Source: a virus
Virus record (IMG/VR): IMGVR_UViG_3300003621_000016
Coordinates: 1 to 32,754 of that record
Strand: one strand, 5' to 3'
DNA: 32,754 bases
The notes under the pieces were generated by a model. It searched no databases, had not been told where the DNA came from, and worked only from the letters and a program-made list of their open reading frames with translations. Of this stretch, positions 604 to 15,075 are shown piece after piece (position 1 is the stretch's first letter; the number at the start of each line of letters is the position of its first letter). The translations under genes and the position numbers were made by a program.

Positions 604-1263
604 CTATTTTCTATCCATAACTGCGTCTATCATCCCATATTTTTTAGCTTCATCAGATTTCATCCAGTAGTCCCTCTCAGAGTCTTTATAAACTTTACTA
701 TATTTCTGACCACTGTGTAATGATATTATATCGTACAATTCCTTTTTAAGCTTACCTATTTCTCTAGCAGTTATCTCTATGTCAGTAGCTTGTCCTTCAG
801 CACCACCTAGTGGTTGGTGTATCATGACTCTTGAGTGTGGTAGTGCATATCTCTTACCTTTGGCACCTGCACATAATAGTACTGCACCCATTGATGCGGC
901 TAAACCAGTACATATAGTGGATACTTCTGGTTTTATATACTGCATAGTATCATAAATCCCTAGACCAGAATATACTGAACCCCCTGGCGAATTTATATAT
1001 ATTTGGATATCTCTATTTGGGTCCATAGATTCTAAAAACAGTAGTTGAGCTTGAATTATGTTAGACACTTGGTCATTTATACCTGTACCCAGGAATATGA
1101 CTCTTTCCATCATTAGTCTGGAAAACACGTCCATTTGAGTTACATTCATTTCTCGTTCTTCCATGATGTATGGTGTGACAGAACTTTTAAAGTTATTAAG
1201 TGATTCTGATTTTATACCCATATGCATTGTGGCATATTTACTAAATTCTTTACCTAGATTCAT
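604..1263 (-). CDS. clpP: ATP-dependent Clp protease proteolytic subunit, Bacteroidota type
   Basis: ClpP is the serine peptidase that forms two stacked heptameric rings and degrades proteins fed by a Clp ATPase. The 219-residue length is normal. The catalytic Ser124 sits in GLAASMGA, His149 in RVMIHQPLGG and Asp194 in YKDSERDYW, so the triad is intact; the substrate-binding NSPGGSV is at 91-97. The N-terminal extension with KEFSKYATMHMGI and the run QMDVFSRLMMERVIFLGT are what I recall from Bacteroidota ClpP rather than proteobacterial ClpP, which suggests capture from the host. No Clp ATPase partner (ClpX or ClpA) is visible in the window, so it would need the host ATPase or act as a subunit mixed into host ClpP. 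It has its own likely promoter and terminator and is separated from the gene upstream by 46 bases. The start is the ATG after an A-rich leader. Confidence 0.97.
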   Translation of the reverse strand: MNLGKEFSKYATMHMGIKSESLNNFKSSVTPYIMEEREMNVTQMDVFSRLMMERVIFLGTGINDQVSNIIQAQLLFLESMDPNRDIQIYINSPGGSVYSGLGIYDTMQYIKPEVSTICTGLAASMGAVLLCAGAKGKRYALPHSRVMIHQPLGGAEGQATDIEITAREIGKLKKELYDIISLHSGQKYSKVYKDSERDYWMKSDEAKKYGMIDAVMDRK

Positions 1264-7389: not shown

Positions 7390-9864
7390 TCATAAAATAC
7401 CTTTTTTACTAACGCTCTTTAAGAACATTTCGTTCTCATTAACTAAATTAGTTTTTCTTTCCACGTTTATAACTTCTTGTTCGTAAGAGAACATTTTTTT
7501 AATCTTATCTAACTCTTCGTTAACCTTACCATTCTTAGTAGTTTCTTCTTCTTCCTCTTCGGTTGATATAGGTCTTGAAGTATAATCTTTATCTGCATTA
7601 CCCTGGTTTTCTTTGGCTGCATCAAATATCTTCTCACCAGCTTTGCTTTCATTATCTATGTTAGCTTCAGCCCCAAGGGTTTCTTCGTCACGCTTAACTG
7701 AATGTCCAGTCTTAACTTCCATCTCAACTCTCTCCTTATACTCATCAGAAGGTTCGTTAGTGTAATCTAGGTTTAAAGCATTTTTATAACCTAAAGATGA
7801 TTCTTTAGCCTCTACGTCTGATTCTGTCTCCATTTCTGGTGAGAATTTTTGGTTTTTTAAGTTATCTACTTTTTCTTCAGTTGATTCTTGTGATTCTTCA
7901 GCGTCTTTAATACCCTCTTCACCTTCTTTCTTGGCATTCGTTTCGTTTTCAGCGTCAACAAATTTACCTTTTATTGGTTCAAACTTAGACAGCTCTGCTT
8001 CTTCTAGGAAGTCTTCATCGCTATCCATGTCTAATGTAGACATCTTTTCGATATTCTTTAAGTCACTCATCGTTGGTTCTTTCTCATCAGAGAAATCGTC
8101 TTCAGTTTCGCTTTTTCCATCACTTTTACCTTCTTTTCTATCCGTATAGTCTTGGATAAAGTTTCGTTTCTTATCAACTTTAGGTTCCAATTCACTTACG
8201 GTGTCTAACGCGTTTAATAAAGCGTCTTCGTTATTCAACCCGCTTTTGTCTAGAAACCCTCTTTTAGCTGGTGATGTTAATAACAATAATATACTTTGGT
8301 TACCACCTTTAGAGAATAACCTATCGTAGTATTCTATATGGTTCTCTTCACCACTTTTCTGTATGAAATCTATAAACTCATCCGCATCAGCATTAGCGCT
8401 AGACGCAAATGATCTAAAATAAGCATTAAACATTTCTTTTATTGTATCTGGTGCTAGAATCTTAGCGACATTACCTAATGCGACTTCAATACTATTCATA
8501 AATTGGTTAAATTGCCTCAATTCGGTTTCGTATTGTTGCGAATCTGATTTAGTTTTAACAGCTTCGTCTGACAATTCTTCAATAGTTTCAGGTAATTCTT
8601 GAGCCATTGATTTTTCCTTTTCGTCACTACTATGACCAAAAGTTTTGTGAACTAGATTATCTAAGTCTTTGTGAAATTCGTCTTCTTTATTAACTTCTTT
8701 TTCTGGCGCTTCCATTTCATTCATTATGAAATCGAATACTTGGTCCATACTTTCTTTAGATGTAGCAATGTGATCTTGTGCCCAATCATGACCATTATCT
8801 AAAAGCTCTTGTACTTTAGTTTCGTCAAGTGCTAATAATATATCAGACTGTCTTCTCATCTGTTCTAAATTAGAAAAAAACATATACCTTTCATCATCCT
8901 CATTAATGGCTGCTCTAGCATTATCTTCTATAGGACCTTCAGATGTAGTTTTTGAGGCATTACAATACTCAGTTATGTATCCTTTCATTTCGTTGGTACA
9001 ATCACTTTCGTCAGTACTCATAGTACAAGATTTGATCATTTCCAAACATATATCCGAATCTTCCATCATACTTCTACATTGCCCTTCATAGGTCTCACCT
9101 TCTTCAATTGTTTCTGGTAAAAACCCTTCTTTAACCAAAGTTTCGTACATGCATTCAGCAAGATCTTTATTTTCCATTATGCTGTCCATGCATTTAGATG
9201 CTAACTCAGCGGTTAATTTAATATTTTCCATTTTATCGGTATTTTCTAGTATATTATATTTTAGTTCTATTGACTCGTCTAATTTTTCTGGTATAGAGTC
9301 TTCGTCTAATCCCATCTCTTCGGCCTGTGTTATGTATTTACCTCTGATTAATTTGGCTACGTGTTCTGGTGAACTCTTGCTTTCTTTAGCAACGTGAGAA
9401 CAATAATCATAACAATTATCACACATATCTTCTTTTGTCTCACCAATCAATTTAATTGGTTTATCTAAAGCGCCTTGTGAACAGTAAGGGAAAGCCAAAC
9501 ATTTAGGTTCTATACTTACGATTTTACCTCCGTTGTACGCAGTACCTTGTTTTAGATCAGCCCCGAACCATTCCATTAAATCACCTTCGGTAACCATTTC
9601 ACCTTCGTTGCTATATATATGTTCTTCAACATACCCTTGTGGTGGTTCAACTACAGTACCAACACCATCAGCATTTTTAACATTCTTGTCAGCCCAGGTG
9701 TAGAATAATCTGCTATTCAATTTCTTTTTATTTATCACACTTAATGGTCCTATAAAACCACCGTATGTTGGGCTACCTGGTACTCCAAGTGTGGACCCTA
9801 AAGATACTGATTCATTAAGTTCTATCGTCTCTTTAATTTTATTTAATAAATCCTGTTTTTTCAT
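7390..9864 (-). CDS. large acidic protein with Cys-rich N-terminal third, unknown function
   Basis: The 824-residue protein is unlike any family I can name. It seems to have three parts. Residues 1-121 look folded and Gly-rich. Residues 122-301 hold all twelve cysteines, including CDNCYDYC (148-155), a C-x9-C pair (263/273) and further spaced pairs, which suggests metal binding or disulfides in helical hairpins. Residues 302-824 have no Cys and are extremely rich in Glu, Asp, Lys and Ser, with long charged, probably disordered stretches (STEEEEEETTK near 755) and a helical end (EELDKIKKMFSYEQEV). Possible roles are a scaffold or internal virion protein, or a chaperone-like host-interaction protein. 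It directly abuts 9864-10214 (one-base overlap) and is followed by a strong terminator. Confidence 0.85.
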   Translation of the reverse strand: MKKQDLLNKIKETIELNESVSLGSTLGVPGSPTYGGFIGPLSVINKKKLNSRLFYTWADKNVKNADGVGTVVEPPQGYVEEHIYSNEGEMVTEGDLMEWFGADLKQGTAYNGGKIVSIEPKCLAFPYCSQGALDKPIKLIGETKEDMCDNCYDYCSHVAKESKSSPEHVAKLIRGKYITQAEEMGLDEDSIPEKLDESIELKYNILENTDKMENIKLTAELASKCMDSIMENKDLAECMYETLVKEGFLPETIEEGETYEGQCRSMMEDSDICLEMIKSCTMSTDESDCTNEMKGYITEYCNASKTTSEGPIEDNARAAINEDDERYMFFSNLEQMRRQSDILLALDETKVQELLDNGHDWAQDHIATSKESMDQVFDFIMNEMEAPEKEVNKEDEFHKDLDNLVHKTFGHSSDEKEKSMAQELPETIEELSDEAVKTKSDSQQYETELRQFNQFMNSIEVALGNVAKILAPDTIKEMFNAYFRSFASSANADADEFIDFIQKSGEENHIEYYDRLFSKGGNQSILLLLTSPAKRGFLDKSGLNNEDALLNALDTVSELEPKVDKKRNFIQDYTDRKEGKSDGKSETEDDFSDEKEPTMSDLKNIEKMSTLDMDSDEDFLEEAELSKFEPIKGKFVDAENETNAKKEGEEGIKDAEESQESTEEKVDNLKNQKFSPEMETESDVEAKESSLGYKNALNLDYTNEPSDEYKERVEMEVKTGHSVKRDEETLGAEANIDNESKAGEKIFDAAKENQGNADKDYTSRPISTEEEEEETTKNGKVNEELDKIKKMFSYEQEVINVERKTNLVNENEMFLKSVSKKGIL

Positions 9865-10214
9865 TAGTTAGCTGCGTTTTTTAGATCGTTAGCCCAGAAA
9901 GCTCTTCTAGTCCATAATTGTTTGTATAGTTGAACTAGTACGTTTCTACTTATTTCAACAACCTTATTTTCTAAATCTTTATCACTTTTCACAGTGTCTT
10001 TGAACGTATCCTTAACAATATTCTTAACTCTAGTCTCAAACTGGGAACTACGGTTTATTTCTAAGAAATCTTTAATCTCTTTTTTAACCATAGATTTTAT
10101 ACCATCTTTATCGGTTTTAGTTAACTCTTCGTTAATCAATGAGTTGGTATCAATCTCAATTAAACACTCTTTAAGGTGTTGTTCTAGTTCAGAATCTGTT
10201 ATTTTTACTTTCAT
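9864..10214 (-). CDS. uncharacterised 116-residue helical protein
   Basis: The protein is mostly helical and charged and ends in a distinctive aromatic stretch, LYKQLWTRRAFWANDLKN. I do not recognise a family. The stop codon overlaps the start of the 824-residue protein by one base, so the two are probably coupled and may act together. The gap before this gene holds a TATTTATATT word, related to that before structural genes, which raises the possibility that this pair is expressed late and is part of the virion or its assembly. Confidence 0.75.
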   Translation of the reverse strand: MKVKITDSELEQHLKECLIEIDTNSLINEELTKTDKDGIKSMVKKEIKDFLEINRSSQFETRVKNIVKDTFKDTVKSDKDLENKVVEISRNVLVQLYKQLWTRRAFWANDLKNAAN

Positions 10215-10268: not shown

Positions 10269-10847
10269 TTAATTACTTAATTGTGTTAGTTTAATTAAAT
10301 TATTCCTCCCTATCTGGGGATCATCGTATGTTCTACTAACTAGTTTTAATAAGTTTAACAAATCACCACTTAAAGTAAATGATCCTGATACAGTATTAAT
10401 CATTACATCTTCCTCGTCAGTATCGATAGTAATCTCTTTAACGACATCTAAGGACGGGTTTTTAATAACGTCAGATGTTATAATAACTCTACTATTCTCA
10501 ACCCTTATATTTACGTATGGTAACAATAAACCAGTAGATTTTATTAACTCAGATACTGAATCTTTAAACGCGTCCATATCAATATTAACGTCATCAGATT
10601 TACTCAAATAACCCACTGTGTTTATACCATCAAAAGTAATTTTTTCACCAGATTTGTTATCAATTTCTTCTGGTTCGGTTTTAATAACCTCATCTTCACC
10701 TAAATTATTATATAGGTGGTTACTATCCTTTGGATCTATGTTAGTCACACCTGGTATAAAAGATTCGTTTAGGTGAGCGTCTTTAACTTTTTTTATTAAT
10801 GATTTTATGTCATCATAATTCTTGTCGTGATTAAATCCTCTACTCAT
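10269..10847 (-). CDS. uncharacterised 192-residue protein
   Basis: A polar N-terminal half (MSRGFNHDKNYDDIKSLIKK, then an Asp/Glu/Asn-rich linker) leads to a compact alpha/beta domain from about residue 85, with strands YVNIRVENSRVIITSDVI and KEITIDTDEEDVMINTV and a helical end. No family recognised. It overlaps the amidase-like gene upstream by eight bases, which ties the two in expression. The lack of any signal peptide suggests a cytoplasmic or virion protein. Confidence 0.75.
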   Translation of the reverse strand: MSRGFNHDKNYDDIKSLIKKVKDAHLNESFIPGVTNIDPKDSNHLYNNLGEDEVIKTEPEEIDNKSGEKITFDGINTVGYLSKSDDVNIDMDAFKDSVSELIKSTGLLLPYVNIRVENSRVIITSDVIKNPSLDVVKEITIDTDEEDVMINTVSGSFTLSGDLLNLLKLVSRTYDDPQIGRNNLIKLTQLSN

Positions 10848-11451
10848 AACTTTTGTTTATTAATTTAGTTAACTTTTTAAAATCAAATGCTGGTGATAAG
10901 TCGTAATAATTTTTACTATAATTACTTCTATTAAGTATCCCTTTGTGTTGATCTGGTTTATCTATTATTATATTAGTCCCTACAAAGTCTTTTTCAATCC
11001 CATGCTTTAAAGATAAATAGTCTATTAATTCTACAAGTTTAGTATATTGTATTTCGGTGTAGTTGGCCCAAACCTTCTTACCCCTCCAAGGTATGTTTAT
11101 TACGCTTTTTGTGTAGTAGGAACCTTTCCAATCAACTAGTTTACCAGTAATAACATCTTTATGTAACCACCCAACGTTTTCTAAAGCTACCGTTATACCA
11201 TTTTTCTCTATACCATACTCCGATAACATATCATTATAACTATTAACATCGTAATGTTGGTATACATCACCATCTCTAGAAATAGAAAAACACGGTACCT
11301 TGGTGTATTTACCATTGTACCGTGTTTTTATTTTAACCAAATACTCCTCAAAAGTACAAGTCGTATTTGTTAGAATTATTTGTTTTTTCTTAGCTTTTGT
11401 TTTTGTGGTATGTTCTTTATCTTTAAAATAAAACTCTTTATTTATTTCCAT
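10840..11451 (-). CDS. amidase_2/PGRP-like protein with apparently degenerate zinc site
   Basis: The order of elements fits the N-acetylmuramoyl-L-alanine amidase (Amidase_2/PGRP) fold, which cuts the peptide from the glycan in cell-wall peptidoglycan: first strand QIILTNTTCT (24-33), the central VPCFSISRDGDVYQHYD (52-68), the strand GITVALENVGWL (85-96), the helix QYTKLVELIDYL, and the end RSNYSKNYYDLSPAFDF (175-191), which corresponds to the family's H-x-D-x-SPAF end. However, the zinc-binding His expected in the first strand is Asn29, and the one expected before DLSPAF is Tyr182, so the metal site looks lost. It may bind peptidoglycan or a muropeptide without cutting it, or be active by another route. 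There is no signal peptide. It sits beside a membrane-protein gene, overlapping its end by 14 bases. Confidence 0.65.
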   Translation of the reverse strand: MEINKEFYFKDKEHTTKTKAKKKQIILTNTTCTFEEYLVKIKTRYNGKYTKVPCFSISRDGDVYQHYDVNSYNDMLSEYGIEKNGITVALENVGWLHKDVITGKLVDWKGSYYTKSVINIPWRGKKVWANYTEIQYTKLVELIDYLSLKHGIEKDFVGTNIIIDKPDQHKGILNRSNYSKNYYDLSPAFDFKKLTKLINKSYE

Positions 11452-12343
11452 CTTTTTTAAAAACCATTATACTATCATCGTATTTATTATCCTCTATAGT
11501 ATCCTCTATAGTATCCTCTATAGTATCTTCAGAAACTACGTTTACCGTATCTTGGTTTTCGAAGTCTTGTATATCCATGTCTTCTACCATATCATTCATC
11601 ACCATATCCAACGCATGGTCTTCGTCCCATTCTTCTTTTAGGTCAATTTCTTCTGGTTGCGAATTTTCTCTATAAGCTGCAATATTTTCATAATACTCTG
11701 ATAATGATTCTTCATCTTCTAACTCATGATTTTTATCATAATCCCACCCAATAAACGGGTCTTCATCCACATCTTCGTCCAAGTTATCACCATATGTGGT
11801 CCATCTATCAATCTGATCGTTATAGTCATCTAAATCATCTTCAATATCCTCAACCACTTTTTCTGAAGATACATTTTCTTCATTTAAAACCTTTTCAGGT
11901 GCTGGATCTTCGGATGGTCTAATATAATCAACTAGTGATTTTATAAAACCTAAAGCTACTAGAGGTAATATCGCTCCACTAACAATTGACATGACTCTTT
12001 TTTGAAAAATTGGTTCGAAATCAACCAAACCAAATAATTCTGACCAGGTTTTAAAGTCTTCCAGGTTATTGTACGCATAATAAGTGTTACCCATAGCTTG
12101 CATTGCGGTCAATATGAAGAATAGTGCCCAAACTATACTTTTGTTCATTTTTTTTAGGGCTATTATTGAAGCTAATGATGCCGCAGCACCAACTTCAAAA
12201 GCTATAGCTAATGTAACTGCTAACCATTTTGGGTTTGATAACTCAAAGAAGTCTATTACGTGTATCGTTGATATAATAGATACCATAACGTATAAAGTTA
12301 CGAAAGTACCTATAATGAAATTCTTGCTTAGTTTCTCTCCCAT
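11438..12343 (-). CDS. four-helix membrane protein with long acidic cytoplasmic-type tail
   Basis: Hydrophobic helices lie at about residues 9-29, 40-63, 69-87 and 117-137. The second is unusually rich in small residues (FEVGAAASLASIIAL). From residue 144 to the end the chain is dominated by Asp and Glu, finishing with three TIED units. No known transporter or channel motif is visible. Its neighbours, an amidase-like protein downstream and a zincin upstream (one-base overlap, TAATG), make a holin-like or envelope-modifying role conceivable, but the long tail is not typical of a holin. It may be a membrane anchor for a phage complex. Confidence 0.8.
   Translation of the reverse strand: MGEKLSKNFIIGTFVTLYVMVSIISTIHVIDFFELSNPKWLAVTLAIAFEVGAAASLASIIALKKMNKSIVWALFFILTAMQAMGNTYYAYNNLEDFKTWSELFGLVDFEPIFQKRVMSIVSGAILPLVALGFIKSLVDYIRPSEDPAPEKVLNEENVSSEKVVEDIEDDLDDYNDQIDRWTTYGDNLDEDVDEDPFIGWDYDKNHELEDEESLSEYYENIAAYRENSQPEEIDLKEEWDEDHALDMVMNDMVEDMDIQDFENQDTVNVVSEDTIEDTIEDTIEDNKYDDSIMVFKKDGNK
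11491..11526. repeat. three tandem 12-base repeats inside a gene
   Basis: The unit cctctatagtat is repeated three times without mismatch. It encodes the Thr-Ile-Glu-Asp units near the C-terminus of the membrane protein and adds in-frame length, so copy number can vary without breaking the gene. Confidence 0.85.
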
Positions 12344-13869
12344 TACTTTATCATGTTTTTAAATATAAGTTTAGATTCATTTATCTCCTCAAGTATTTCG
12401 TCTATAGATTCTACACTTTTTTTAATAGGGGCTTTAAGTAATTTAGCTACGTCACTCATTGACACCATATCCCCGTGTATCTCTTGTTCACCTTCGACCT
12501 CATTAACTTTATCTATGTGTTTGTTTATAGATTTTATGATAATGTTAGCTGTAGTCGTTATTACATCTAGGTTACCGATTATACTATCTTTAGTACCTTT
12601 CCAAAGAGCGATATAATTAACCGCATATTTTAACCCTGGTACATCAAAAGATTTTAAAACAACATAAGCAACTGATTCTGCCTGTAATTCTAATACCTCG
12701 CTAATATCTCTACCAACGTAAGCGTCTAATATATGTTTAGTTTTTTCACCTAACTTATCTTTATCTTTACCACTTTCTGCTTTTGTTTTAAGGAATTTCT
12801 GATGCATTAGCTCGTGAGCAAATTCATGTATAGAAACAGAGGCCTTACCTATGCCCTTAGTGTCACTAGAAATTCTTATTTTACCACTAGCCGAATAACC
12901 CTTCTCCTTGCCTTTAGCATCCTCTATAGCGAAGTCGATACCGTAATCATCATAAACTTTAACCATTGCTTCAAATATTCTGTCAGCAATTTCGTTTTCT
13001 GTTTCATCAAACCACTCTAAATCAACACTTTCTGGTTGTTCGTACTCAGATCCGTCCTCTTTTATAACATCCTTTGTATCGTAAACTGGGTATAATACAA
13101 ATGGCATTGAAGCGACTGGTGCTTTAAGTATTTTATTTAATTCTTTTTGTTTATCTGGTGTCATCCCACCCTTGTTTCTTTTTAGGAATTTTTCAGTTCT
13201 TTCTTTTTTAACCGACTCTGTTGGTGGTTTTAGTGTGGGTCTCCAAATTAAAATCTGTTTAGCGTCTTCTTTTGGTTTTAAACCTAATTTAGACCAACCA
13301 GTTTTAGAGTTTACTTTAGTTGCATCTTCGTTCTGTATAAATATTAACAATTGGTTAGTGAAGGAATAGTTAGGGAATTTACTTAAGAAATCAAAGTACT
13401 CTTTAATCTTAGTGGTTAACCTTATCGTGTCCACTTCTTCTGCCAATTCTGTGATAAAACCTTGTATTTTCTTAGTGATATCATCTTTTGTTACATTAGC
13501 TTCTGGTGATACTGGTGCGGTTGAAATAAAATCTTTAATATCCTCTAACTTAGCTATGATCTCGTTAGCCTCATTAGATTGGTTTAACTTTTTATTAGCT
13601 TCCGCAACCGCGTTTTTAGCTATATCAATAACTTGTTCGATAGGCTTAAATTTGTCGTTTAACCACCATTGCTTGTTCTTACCGTCCCACATAAAACCAT
13701 GTTTTTTTAATATATCTTTAACGGATATAACTTCAGATGTAGCCTTATTGTTGTCCTCTATATCTGAGACTATAACAACTCTACTTGACCCAAATTGGTC
13801 TTTGGTTACCTTGGATAGCGTAAGAGCTTCGTTAATATTTTCGTTTGTGATGTGTTTGTGTAATAACAT
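12343..13869 (-). CDS. ArdC-like protein: ssDNA-binding domain plus M78-type zincin
   Basis: Three regions can be seen. Residues 25-85 contain KDILKKHGFMWDGKNKQWWL, a small domain seen attached to phage and plasmid DNA-interacting proteins. Residues 145-212 fit the ArdC N-terminal single-strand DNA-binding domain: YSFTNQLLIFIQNEDATKV, GWSKLGLKPKEDAKQILIW. Residues 290-410 are a zinc metallopeptidase domain with SIHEFAHELMHQ (His348, Glu349, His352) and the downstream Glu398 in LELQAESVAYVV, the usual third ligand region of this group. ArdC proteins of plasmids protect incoming DNA from restriction; phage members are presumed to do the same. Here it lies inside a long leftward operon with overlapping genes on both sides. 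The substrate, if peptidase activity is real, is unknown. Confidence 0.85.
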   Translation of the reverse strand: MLLHKHITNENINEALTLSKVTKDQFGSSRVVIVSDIEDNNKATSEVISVKDILKKHGFMWDGKNKQWWLNDKFKPIEQVIDIAKNAVAEANKKLNQSNEANEIIAKLEDIKDFISTAPVSPEANVTKDDITKKIQGFITELAEEVDTIRLTTKIKEYFDFLSKFPNYSFTNQLLIFIQNEDATKVNSKTGWSKLGLKPKEDAKQILIWRPTLKPPTESVKKERTEKFLKRNKGGMTPDKQKELNKILKAPVASMPFVLYPVYDTKDVIKEDGSEYEQPESVDLEWFDETENEIADRIFEAMVKVYDDYGIDFAIEDAKGKEKGYSASGKIRISSDTKGIGKASVSIHEFAHELMHQKFLKTKAESGKDKDKLGEKTKHILDAYVGRDISEVLELQAESVAYVVLKSFDVPGLKYAVNYIALWKGTKDSIIGNLDVITTTANIIIKSINKHIDKVNEVEGEQEIHGDMVSMSDVAKLLKAPIKKSVESIDEILEEINESKLIFKNMIK

Positions 13870-14268: not shown

Positions 14269-15075
14269 TCACATTAATTCGAAAATACTACTCGAATAGA
14301 ACCTTATTTTCTTTATCGCCTTTTCTTTTATTTGCCTAACACGCTCTTTGGTTAGTTTTAGATCTACCGATATATCCTGTAATGTTGATTCATCACAATC
14401 TAAACCGAAATATCTTGTTATGACTAACCGCTCCGTCTCATTAAGTTCCATTAGAACCTTTTTTAAAGCACGATTTAAGTTCGCTTGTTCATTGTCGTAC
14501 ATATCATCAGGTTTTAATGAGGAGACGTCTTCGGTCTTGTCGTATAAACTTAAACCGTCTTCATCATACTTATCGTCTAAATTAGATACTGATGGTAGGT
14601 TGGCGTATTTTGTACTACTAACAGCCTGTTTCTCTTCAGTTAAGTTAGTAGCCATTTCCATGTTCTCTTTCCTGACCTCATTAATTACATTTATAGGTAA
14701 CCTAATAGTCCTAGAATTATCATTAAGAGATTGTATTATAGATTGTTTTATCCACCATACGGCATAAGATAGGAATCTCACCTCATCTTGCTCGTAATTA
14801 AACCTTTCGGCAGCTTTTAGTAAACCTAAGTTACCTTCTGATATTAAATCACTTAAAGATAAACCGTTGTTTTGGTATTTTTTGGCAACAGTTATTACGA
14901 ACCTAAGGTTTGAGTATATTAGTTTATCTTTAGCCCCAGACTTGCCTGATCTAATTTCTTTTAGTAACAAGTGTTCTTCTAACCTAGTCATAGGCTCGTG
15001 TTTCCTTACATCATGTAAATAGTTGATGATTTCATTCTGGTCAATCCAGTGCGACGTATCTATTTTATAATTCAT
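14269..15075 (-). CDS. sigma-70 family RNA polymerase sigma factor, gp55-like role
   Basis: Sigma factors direct host RNA polymerase to promoters. Region 2 is well kept: SNLRFVITVAKKYQNNGLSL at 55-74, SEGNLGLLKAAERF and SYAVWWIKQSIIQSL at 103-117, then RLPINV. Region 4 is clear at 205-262, with ERLVITRYFGL and the helix-turn-helix ending TKERVRQIKEKAIKKIR. The region-3 helix-turn-helix found between them in Bacteroidota RpoD is missing; instead there is a polar stretch of about 65 residues with only a region-3.2-like SNLDDKYDEDGLSLYD. The 268 residues are somewhat short for RpoD. The closest functional parallel is T4 gp55, the late-gene sigma factor. It probably reads the TATTTATATA-type elements before structural genes. 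It overlaps the previous gene by 11 bases. Confidence 0.92.
   Translation of the reverse strand: MNYKIDTSHWIDQNEIINYLHDVRKHEPMTRLEEHLLLKEIRSGKSGAKDKLIYSNLRFVITVAKKYQNNGLSLSDLISEGNLGLLKAAERFNYEQDEVRFLSYAVWWIKQSIIQSLNDNSRTIRLPINVINEVRKENMEMATNLTEEKQAVSSTKYANLPSVSNLDDKYDEDGLSLYDKTEDVSSLKPDDMYDNEQANLNRALKKVLMELNETERLVITRYFGLDCDESTLQDISVDLKLTKERVRQIKEKAIKKIRFYSSSIFELM

Follow-up and report, generated by a model that had tools for sequence, protein, structure and literature searches.

The window analysed here is a 32,754-nucleotide stretch of DNA from an uncultured T4-like phage (IMG/VR record IMGVR_UViG_3300003621_000016, positions 1 to 32,754) that encodes an ArdC-like zincin flanked by two genes for putative membrane proteins (Table 1). 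The preliminary description of this DNA had proposed a 508-residue reading frame containing an HEFAH zincin and an ELQAES motif, and had placed it beside membrane proteins. The reading frame is borne out and lies on the minus strand, which had not been given; both motifs are present and the numbering of H348 and E349 is correct. The neighbouring genes do encode proteins with TM-like segments by hydropathy, one in the 121-aa protein and three in the 301-aa protein, and the stop codon of the ArdC-like gene overlaps the start codon of the latter (TAATG). Homologs of the protein include two at 79 and 85% identity and further ones at 61-68%, and the possibility of a chance open reading frame is ruled out by close homologs (67-85% identical) and conserved synteny. 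The gene lies outside the head gene cluster and adjoins sigma, SbcC/D and primase genes. The phage sigma-70 factor contains regions 2 and 4 and adjoins the SbcC/SbcD-like genes. The ClpP-like protease, about 91% identical between contigs, is the most conserved gene of those compared with the window.

Table 1. Genes, domains and motifs in the 32,754-nucleotide window (residue numbers refer to the 508-aa protein; a slash marks a cleavage-like site)
Feature	Residues	Position	Strand	Remarks
ArdC-like zincin ORF	1-508	12343..13869	minus	ATG start
Predicted N-terminal propeptide / capsid-targeting sequence	1-14	13828..13869	minus	MLLHKHITNENINE; predicted cut INE/A after residue 14
Clade-specific N-terminal alpha/beta module	~15-95	13585..13827	minus	W61/W68/W69; alignment and predicted structure
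Diverged ArdC-N-like domain, putative ssDNA-binding	128-270	13060..13488	minus	limits approximate
Gluzincin metallopeptidase (MPTase) domain	293-459	12493..12993	minus	limits approximate
HEFAH (HExxH)	348-352	12814..12828	minus	
ELQAES	394-399	12673..12690	minus	E394 aligned with metal ligand E229 of R388 ArdC
Predicted C-terminal propeptide	499-508	12346..12375	minus	SKLIFKNMIK, after INE498
121-aa protein, one N-terminal TM-like segment		13873..14238	minus	directly upstream of the ArdC-like gene; hydropathy
301-aa protein, three TM-like segments		11438..12343	minus	hydropathy
ClpP-like protease		604..1263	minus	Pfam E 2.8e-79
824-aa Cys-/Glu-rich protein		7390..9864	minus	
116-aa protein		9864..10214	minus	N-terminal xE site
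192-aa protein		10269..10847	minus	
Phage sigma-70 factor		14269..15075	minus	

By its sequence profile and catalytic residues, the 508-aa protein is assigned to the ArdC family. A tblastn search with the protein matched plasmid ArdC/LtrC sequences across both domains in 1811 of 72,556 plasmid records (best E ~1e-12 among the matches listed), and 8 of 50,697 phage records were also matched. The window protein taken alone is sub-threshold for Pfam ArdcN (14.9 bits vs a cut-off of 22.6). Four relatives (L061, L063, L064 and L067) pass the cut-off, with E values of 1.7e-6 to 9.6e-10, and 6 of 11 clade members match at E<=10. When a profile of 59 sequences was used in hmmsearch, ArdC of plasmid R388 was recovered at E 2.4e-10 (6sna) and 6.3e-10 (6i89), while IrrE reached only 0.0046 and is thus not the closest family by profile. 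H348, E349, H352, E394 and Y419 are invariant in the 59 sequences, and the profile alignment pairs them with H201, E202, H205, E229 and Y255 of R388 ArdC (PDB 6I89, 6SNA), which likewise consists of an ArdC-N domain and a gluzincin. An 11-protein mixed alignment with plasmid and phage ArdCs has the same five residues invariant, together with, among others, Y168, S169, N172, W192, A397 and E398. With the five aligned plasmid proteins the window protein shares 20-28% identity. It differs from R388 ArdC in having an N-terminal module and terminal head-type propeptides, in carrying L393 where R388 ArdC has the nonconserved E228, and in being encoded by a phage rather than a conjugative plasmid.

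The predicted fold agrees with this assignment. The three best Foldseek matches of an AlphaFold2 model built from the 59 sequences (pLDDT 80.5) are all R388 ArdC (6i89, E 7.7e-6), which is also the top match in VIA-align (Z 8.5, rmsd 3.9, 139 residues). With low Foldseek TM-scores (0.18-0.37) and a high rmsd across the two domains (15-16), the ArdC match is one at the level of the family and not a close superposition. Sequence profile, predicted fold and catalytic residues support the earlier proposal of an ArdC-like protein that is a candidate anti-restriction factor, an activity that would follow from its homology to ArdC. PADLOC and NCBIfam returned nothing credible for the protein, and BFVD contained no match with E <0.001. 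After ArdC, the fold comes closest to IrrE (Z 7.0, rmsd 2.7, 92 residues), and Spartan is a weak match (Z 4.3-4.4). The kinship to these proteins, the complete set of catalytic residues and the nearby DNA-repair genes would fit a protease that, while the phage replicates, removes DNA-crosslinked proteins or cuts a host repressor, with no part in anti-restriction. Such a role is quite improbable, since ArdC, and not IrrE or Spartan, gives the best two-domain match; what links the protein to those two proteases is the gluzincin fold.

The extra N-terminal module of the preliminary description is confirmed: it is conserved throughout the phage clade and predicted at pLDDT ~70-94 after residue 10. 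Its label of Trp-rich is generous for a module with three tryptophans, and it may, as proposed there, direct the protein to a specific target. The module is absent from the plasmid ArdCs that were aligned, among which the Campylobacter protein carries its own N-terminal region. Matches to DUF5710 are sub-threshold (3 of 11 members, best E 0.081), and structural matches have Z scores of 5.5 and below; neither is strong enough to give the module a name.

Residues 1-14 and 499-508, which the preliminary description passes over, resemble the head propeptides of T4-type phages. In the accounts of T4 head maturation consulted, the prohead protease gp21 cuts after L/I-X-E, internal proteins are directed to the core by propeptides of 10-19 residues, and both ends of Alt are cleaved (PMC9026906; also PMC7411985). 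The predicted N-terminal propeptide fits this pattern in both length (14 residues) and sequence (INE/A), and its end resembles those of the T4 internal proteins IPI (ITE/A) and IPII and IPIII (both IAE/A) in database records.

The N-terminal site was followed in an alignment of 11 clade members that fall into three divergent groups and share 34-85% identity with the window protein. The alignment left out near-duplicates (L032, L062, L065, L066, L068, L069 and L034/L036, the last two with the N-terminal site VNE/A), and L071-L073, which match the query (29%) and have another N-terminus with no such site; L035 is three codons short in it. A site of the form [ILV]-x-E/[AS] closes a leader of 11-14 residues in 11/11 members, which are not independent of one another. 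The variants at column 14 are INE/A, INE/S, VNE/A, LRE/A, LYE/A, LEE/A, LDE/A and IME/A. P3 is thus I or L, except for V in L035, while P2 varies among N, R, Y, E, D and M, and only M1, E14, L16 and L18 are invariant before residue 35. In the model, residues 1-10 have pLDDT <50 and the first strand spans residues 16-23. At the C-terminal end, the window protein has INE/SKLIFKNMIK and the members of a distant group have VDE/NLYL, IDE/NLYL, LDE/DLYL or VDE/GFDLYL. The control set consisted of 110 other ArdC-family proteins (the distinct ATG-start proteins from 139 loci given). An N-terminal site within residues 6-20 occurs in 8 of these, six of which are look-alikes of one group, and none of the 110 has both sites.

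Several ArdC-like proteins of related phages have other termini. In the protein at L059:1935-3818 the INE site keeps its usual place, and a C-terminal extension of about 100 residues is present. Other phage ArdC-N/IrrE-like proteins (L072:4614-6509 and L073:4590-6506) start with MTYKDFFKE, and the neighbour of the one in L072 starts with MKYKDFFINED. It is possible that the MTYKDFFKE-type start is a different leader, in phages without an S77 match; searches of the L072 and L073 contigs turned up neither the S77 protease nor Gp23.

The idea that terminal xE motifs are common throughout these proteomes was rejected. Across the proteome, N-terminal xE sites are conserved in 5 of 52 families (4.6 expected), and the pattern [LIV]NE[ASTG] occurs at 5 N-termini of the relative G002 (3.1 expected); neither is enriched. 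The 39 ortholog pairs shared by G002 and G010 have four N-terminal sites against 1.5 expected, and the one in the tail sheath protein probably arose by chance. An aligned xE site near either end is found in 5 of these 39 orthologs (scaffold, protease, a 126-aa protein, tail sheath and the ArdC-like protein). In the absence of proteome-wide enrichment, the argument from the sites rests on their conservation within this ArdC-like family and on the 110-protein control.

No prohead protease or capsid gene was found in the window's own 35,107-bp record, and the link to the head machinery therefore runs through relatives. G002 (153,961 bp) encodes Gp23 (E 3.7e-73) and an S77 protease (E 6.2e-20). 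Both genes are also present in G010 (168,871 bp) and G013 (206,296 bp), whose ArdC-like proteins are 34-35% identical. Among the records searched, these three alone gave matches to the S77 protease (3 of 20) and to Gp23 (3 of 19). Most records lacking them are short, and G003 (165,848 bp) ends beside the place of the head module as judged by synteny; no head genes were found in G001, a 75-kb fragment. The gp23 sites of relatives, MLNE/SVALG (twice) and LLTE/STTS, align with FLTE/AEIGG of T4, and the scaffold proteins of relatives have C-terminal sites LNE/S and LNE/A. The likeness of the sites in the ArdC-like protein to these bears on the idea that the zincin cuts itself or other head proteins and that the xE sites are its own targets, autoprocessing having been proposed for the MPTase domains of polyvalent proteins (PMC5512222, in the part consulted). 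That idea is hardly credible here, as the same phages encode an S77 protease, which is the expected cutter of such sites.

Two closely related loci differ in what follows the leader. Between L070 (G013) and L033 (G003), 10 of the 11 genes compared are 79-98% identical, but the ArdC-like proteins are only 29% identical. Nucleotide identity is 21-30 of 30 until about bp 60 of the ArdC-like gene, beyond which it is 3-11 of 30 (background), and similarity returns downstream near the last bases of the old gene. The retained ~57-60 bp cover the leader with its site and the beginning of the first strand. An extra 58-aa ORF (L070:6541-6717) lies between the swapped allele and the next gene. The crossover point could have fallen at the end of the leader by chance. 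Among the internal proteins of T4, which are reported to be diverse, the targeting sequence alone is conserved (PMC3012670). They have in common with the ArdC-like protein these varied mature parts behind a kept leader and, in Alt, the cutting at both ends (PMC9026906) that is predicted for the window protein. The mature parts themselves are unrelated, a small inhibitor of a Type IV enzyme in the case of IPI and a two-domain ArdC/zincin in that of the window protein. An exchange of this kind would presumably suit a gene in conflict with the host better than a housekeeping repair gene of the Spartan or IrrE type. It also speaks against a head morphogenesis protein that retains the ArdC fold and is packaged for assembly and not for defence. 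Assembly roles are reported for T4 IPIII and for DarA/Hdf of phage P1 (PMC9026906 and PMC12810830, as far as consulted), but a core protein with a complete catalytic set, replaced in a near relative by a version only 29% identical, is very unlikely.

The terminal signals suggest that the protein is packaged in the phage head, and by a slight balance of probability the phage packs it there as an ArdC-type anti-restriction factor and injects it with the DNA. The 14-residue leader would dock the protein to the prohead core in the manner of the T4 capsid-targeting sequences, perhaps assisted by the 10-residue tail. A prohead protease of the T4 gp21 type would then cut INE14/A and INE498/S, and the freed ArdC-N/zincin protein of ~484 residues would enter the cell together with the phage DNA. 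Once inside, its ArdC-N part may shield that DNA or hinder the restriction enzymes of the host. The substrate of the zincin may be a host protein bound to DNA or the protein itself, and the zincin need not be required for anti-restriction. Packaging, cleavage, injection, ssDNA binding and anti-restriction are what we infer for the window protein. A related and somewhat favoured view of its origin is that T4-like phages took up the ArdC of conjugative plasmids and converted it to an internal protein ejected from the head, with propeptides at both ends, acting at DNA entry and with its body swapped behind a constant leader.

An ArdC-type factor that is made only inside the infected cell and never packaged, with terminal motifs that are incidental or serve folding, is unlikely. 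R388 ArdC is needed in recipient and not in donor cells (PMC7213743, as far as consulted), and this explanation would agree with the location of the gene away from the head cluster and with the lack of genome-wide enrichment of terminal sites. It accounts poorly for N-terminal sites in 11/11 members with a variable P2, for sites at both ends and for a leader kept across the allele swap, and a protein made after entry would presumably come late for the restriction of incoming DNA. Head-type propeptides would supply the delivery mechanism for an injected ArdC, and presence in the virion becomes a prediction, where the preliminary description had counted a structural role in the virion as a refutation. 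Mutation of H348/E349 may say little about restriction, because R388 ArdC with a substituted metal ligand (E229A) kept its activity in conjugation to Pseudomonas putida (PMC7213743, in the part consulted).

Packaged and ejected anti-restriction proteins are exemplified by DarA, DarB and DdrB of phage P1, where the prohead protease cuts DarA. The Dar proteins are different from the window protein and have a different packaging route, and the part of the account consulted does not describe a T4-type leader for them (PMC12810830). Iyer et al. (2017) described polyvalent proteins that pair ArdC-N with MPTase and predicted their co-transfer with DNA (PMC5512222, as far as consulted). ArdC is known from plasmids, and its export with DNA has been proposed but was not needed in the tests with R388. 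In the open-access papers searched, no report of a head-packaged ArdC was found. If the proposed packaging is correct, a phage ArdC with head-packaging signals would show that this protein can also travel with DNA, and would extend the internal-protein strategy of T4 to a DNA-binding metallopeptidase. A leader ending in [ILV]xE/[AS], in a phage that also has an S77 protease, would moreover serve as a sequence rule by which to find other injected counter-defence proteins among uncultured phages.

The Bacteroidota host named in the preliminary description is not established. A genome scan kept 80 of 99 relatives, all 22-29% identical and none starting before query residue 84, and so identified no prophage or host. 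The C-terminal half of the capsid protein of the relative L003 is 43% identical to that of Flavobacterium phage immuto and 41-42% identical to those of a Microcystis phage and an uncultured phage; a paper on Baltic Flavobacterium phages does not mention immuto.

Three other genes of the window encode proteins with xE motifs near the N-terminus. The start of the 824-aa protein, IELNE/SVSLG, nearly repeats the gp23 site MLNE/SVALG of L003; no homolog with a known function was found for this protein, and no family could be assigned to it confidently. The site of the 116-aa protein is LINE/EL in the window and LVNE/SL, LVSE/EL, PINE/AL or VITE/AL in relatives, and the protein is perhaps another head or core protein. 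In the family of the 192-aa protein, all members compared contain [LIVM]NE within the first 45 residues.
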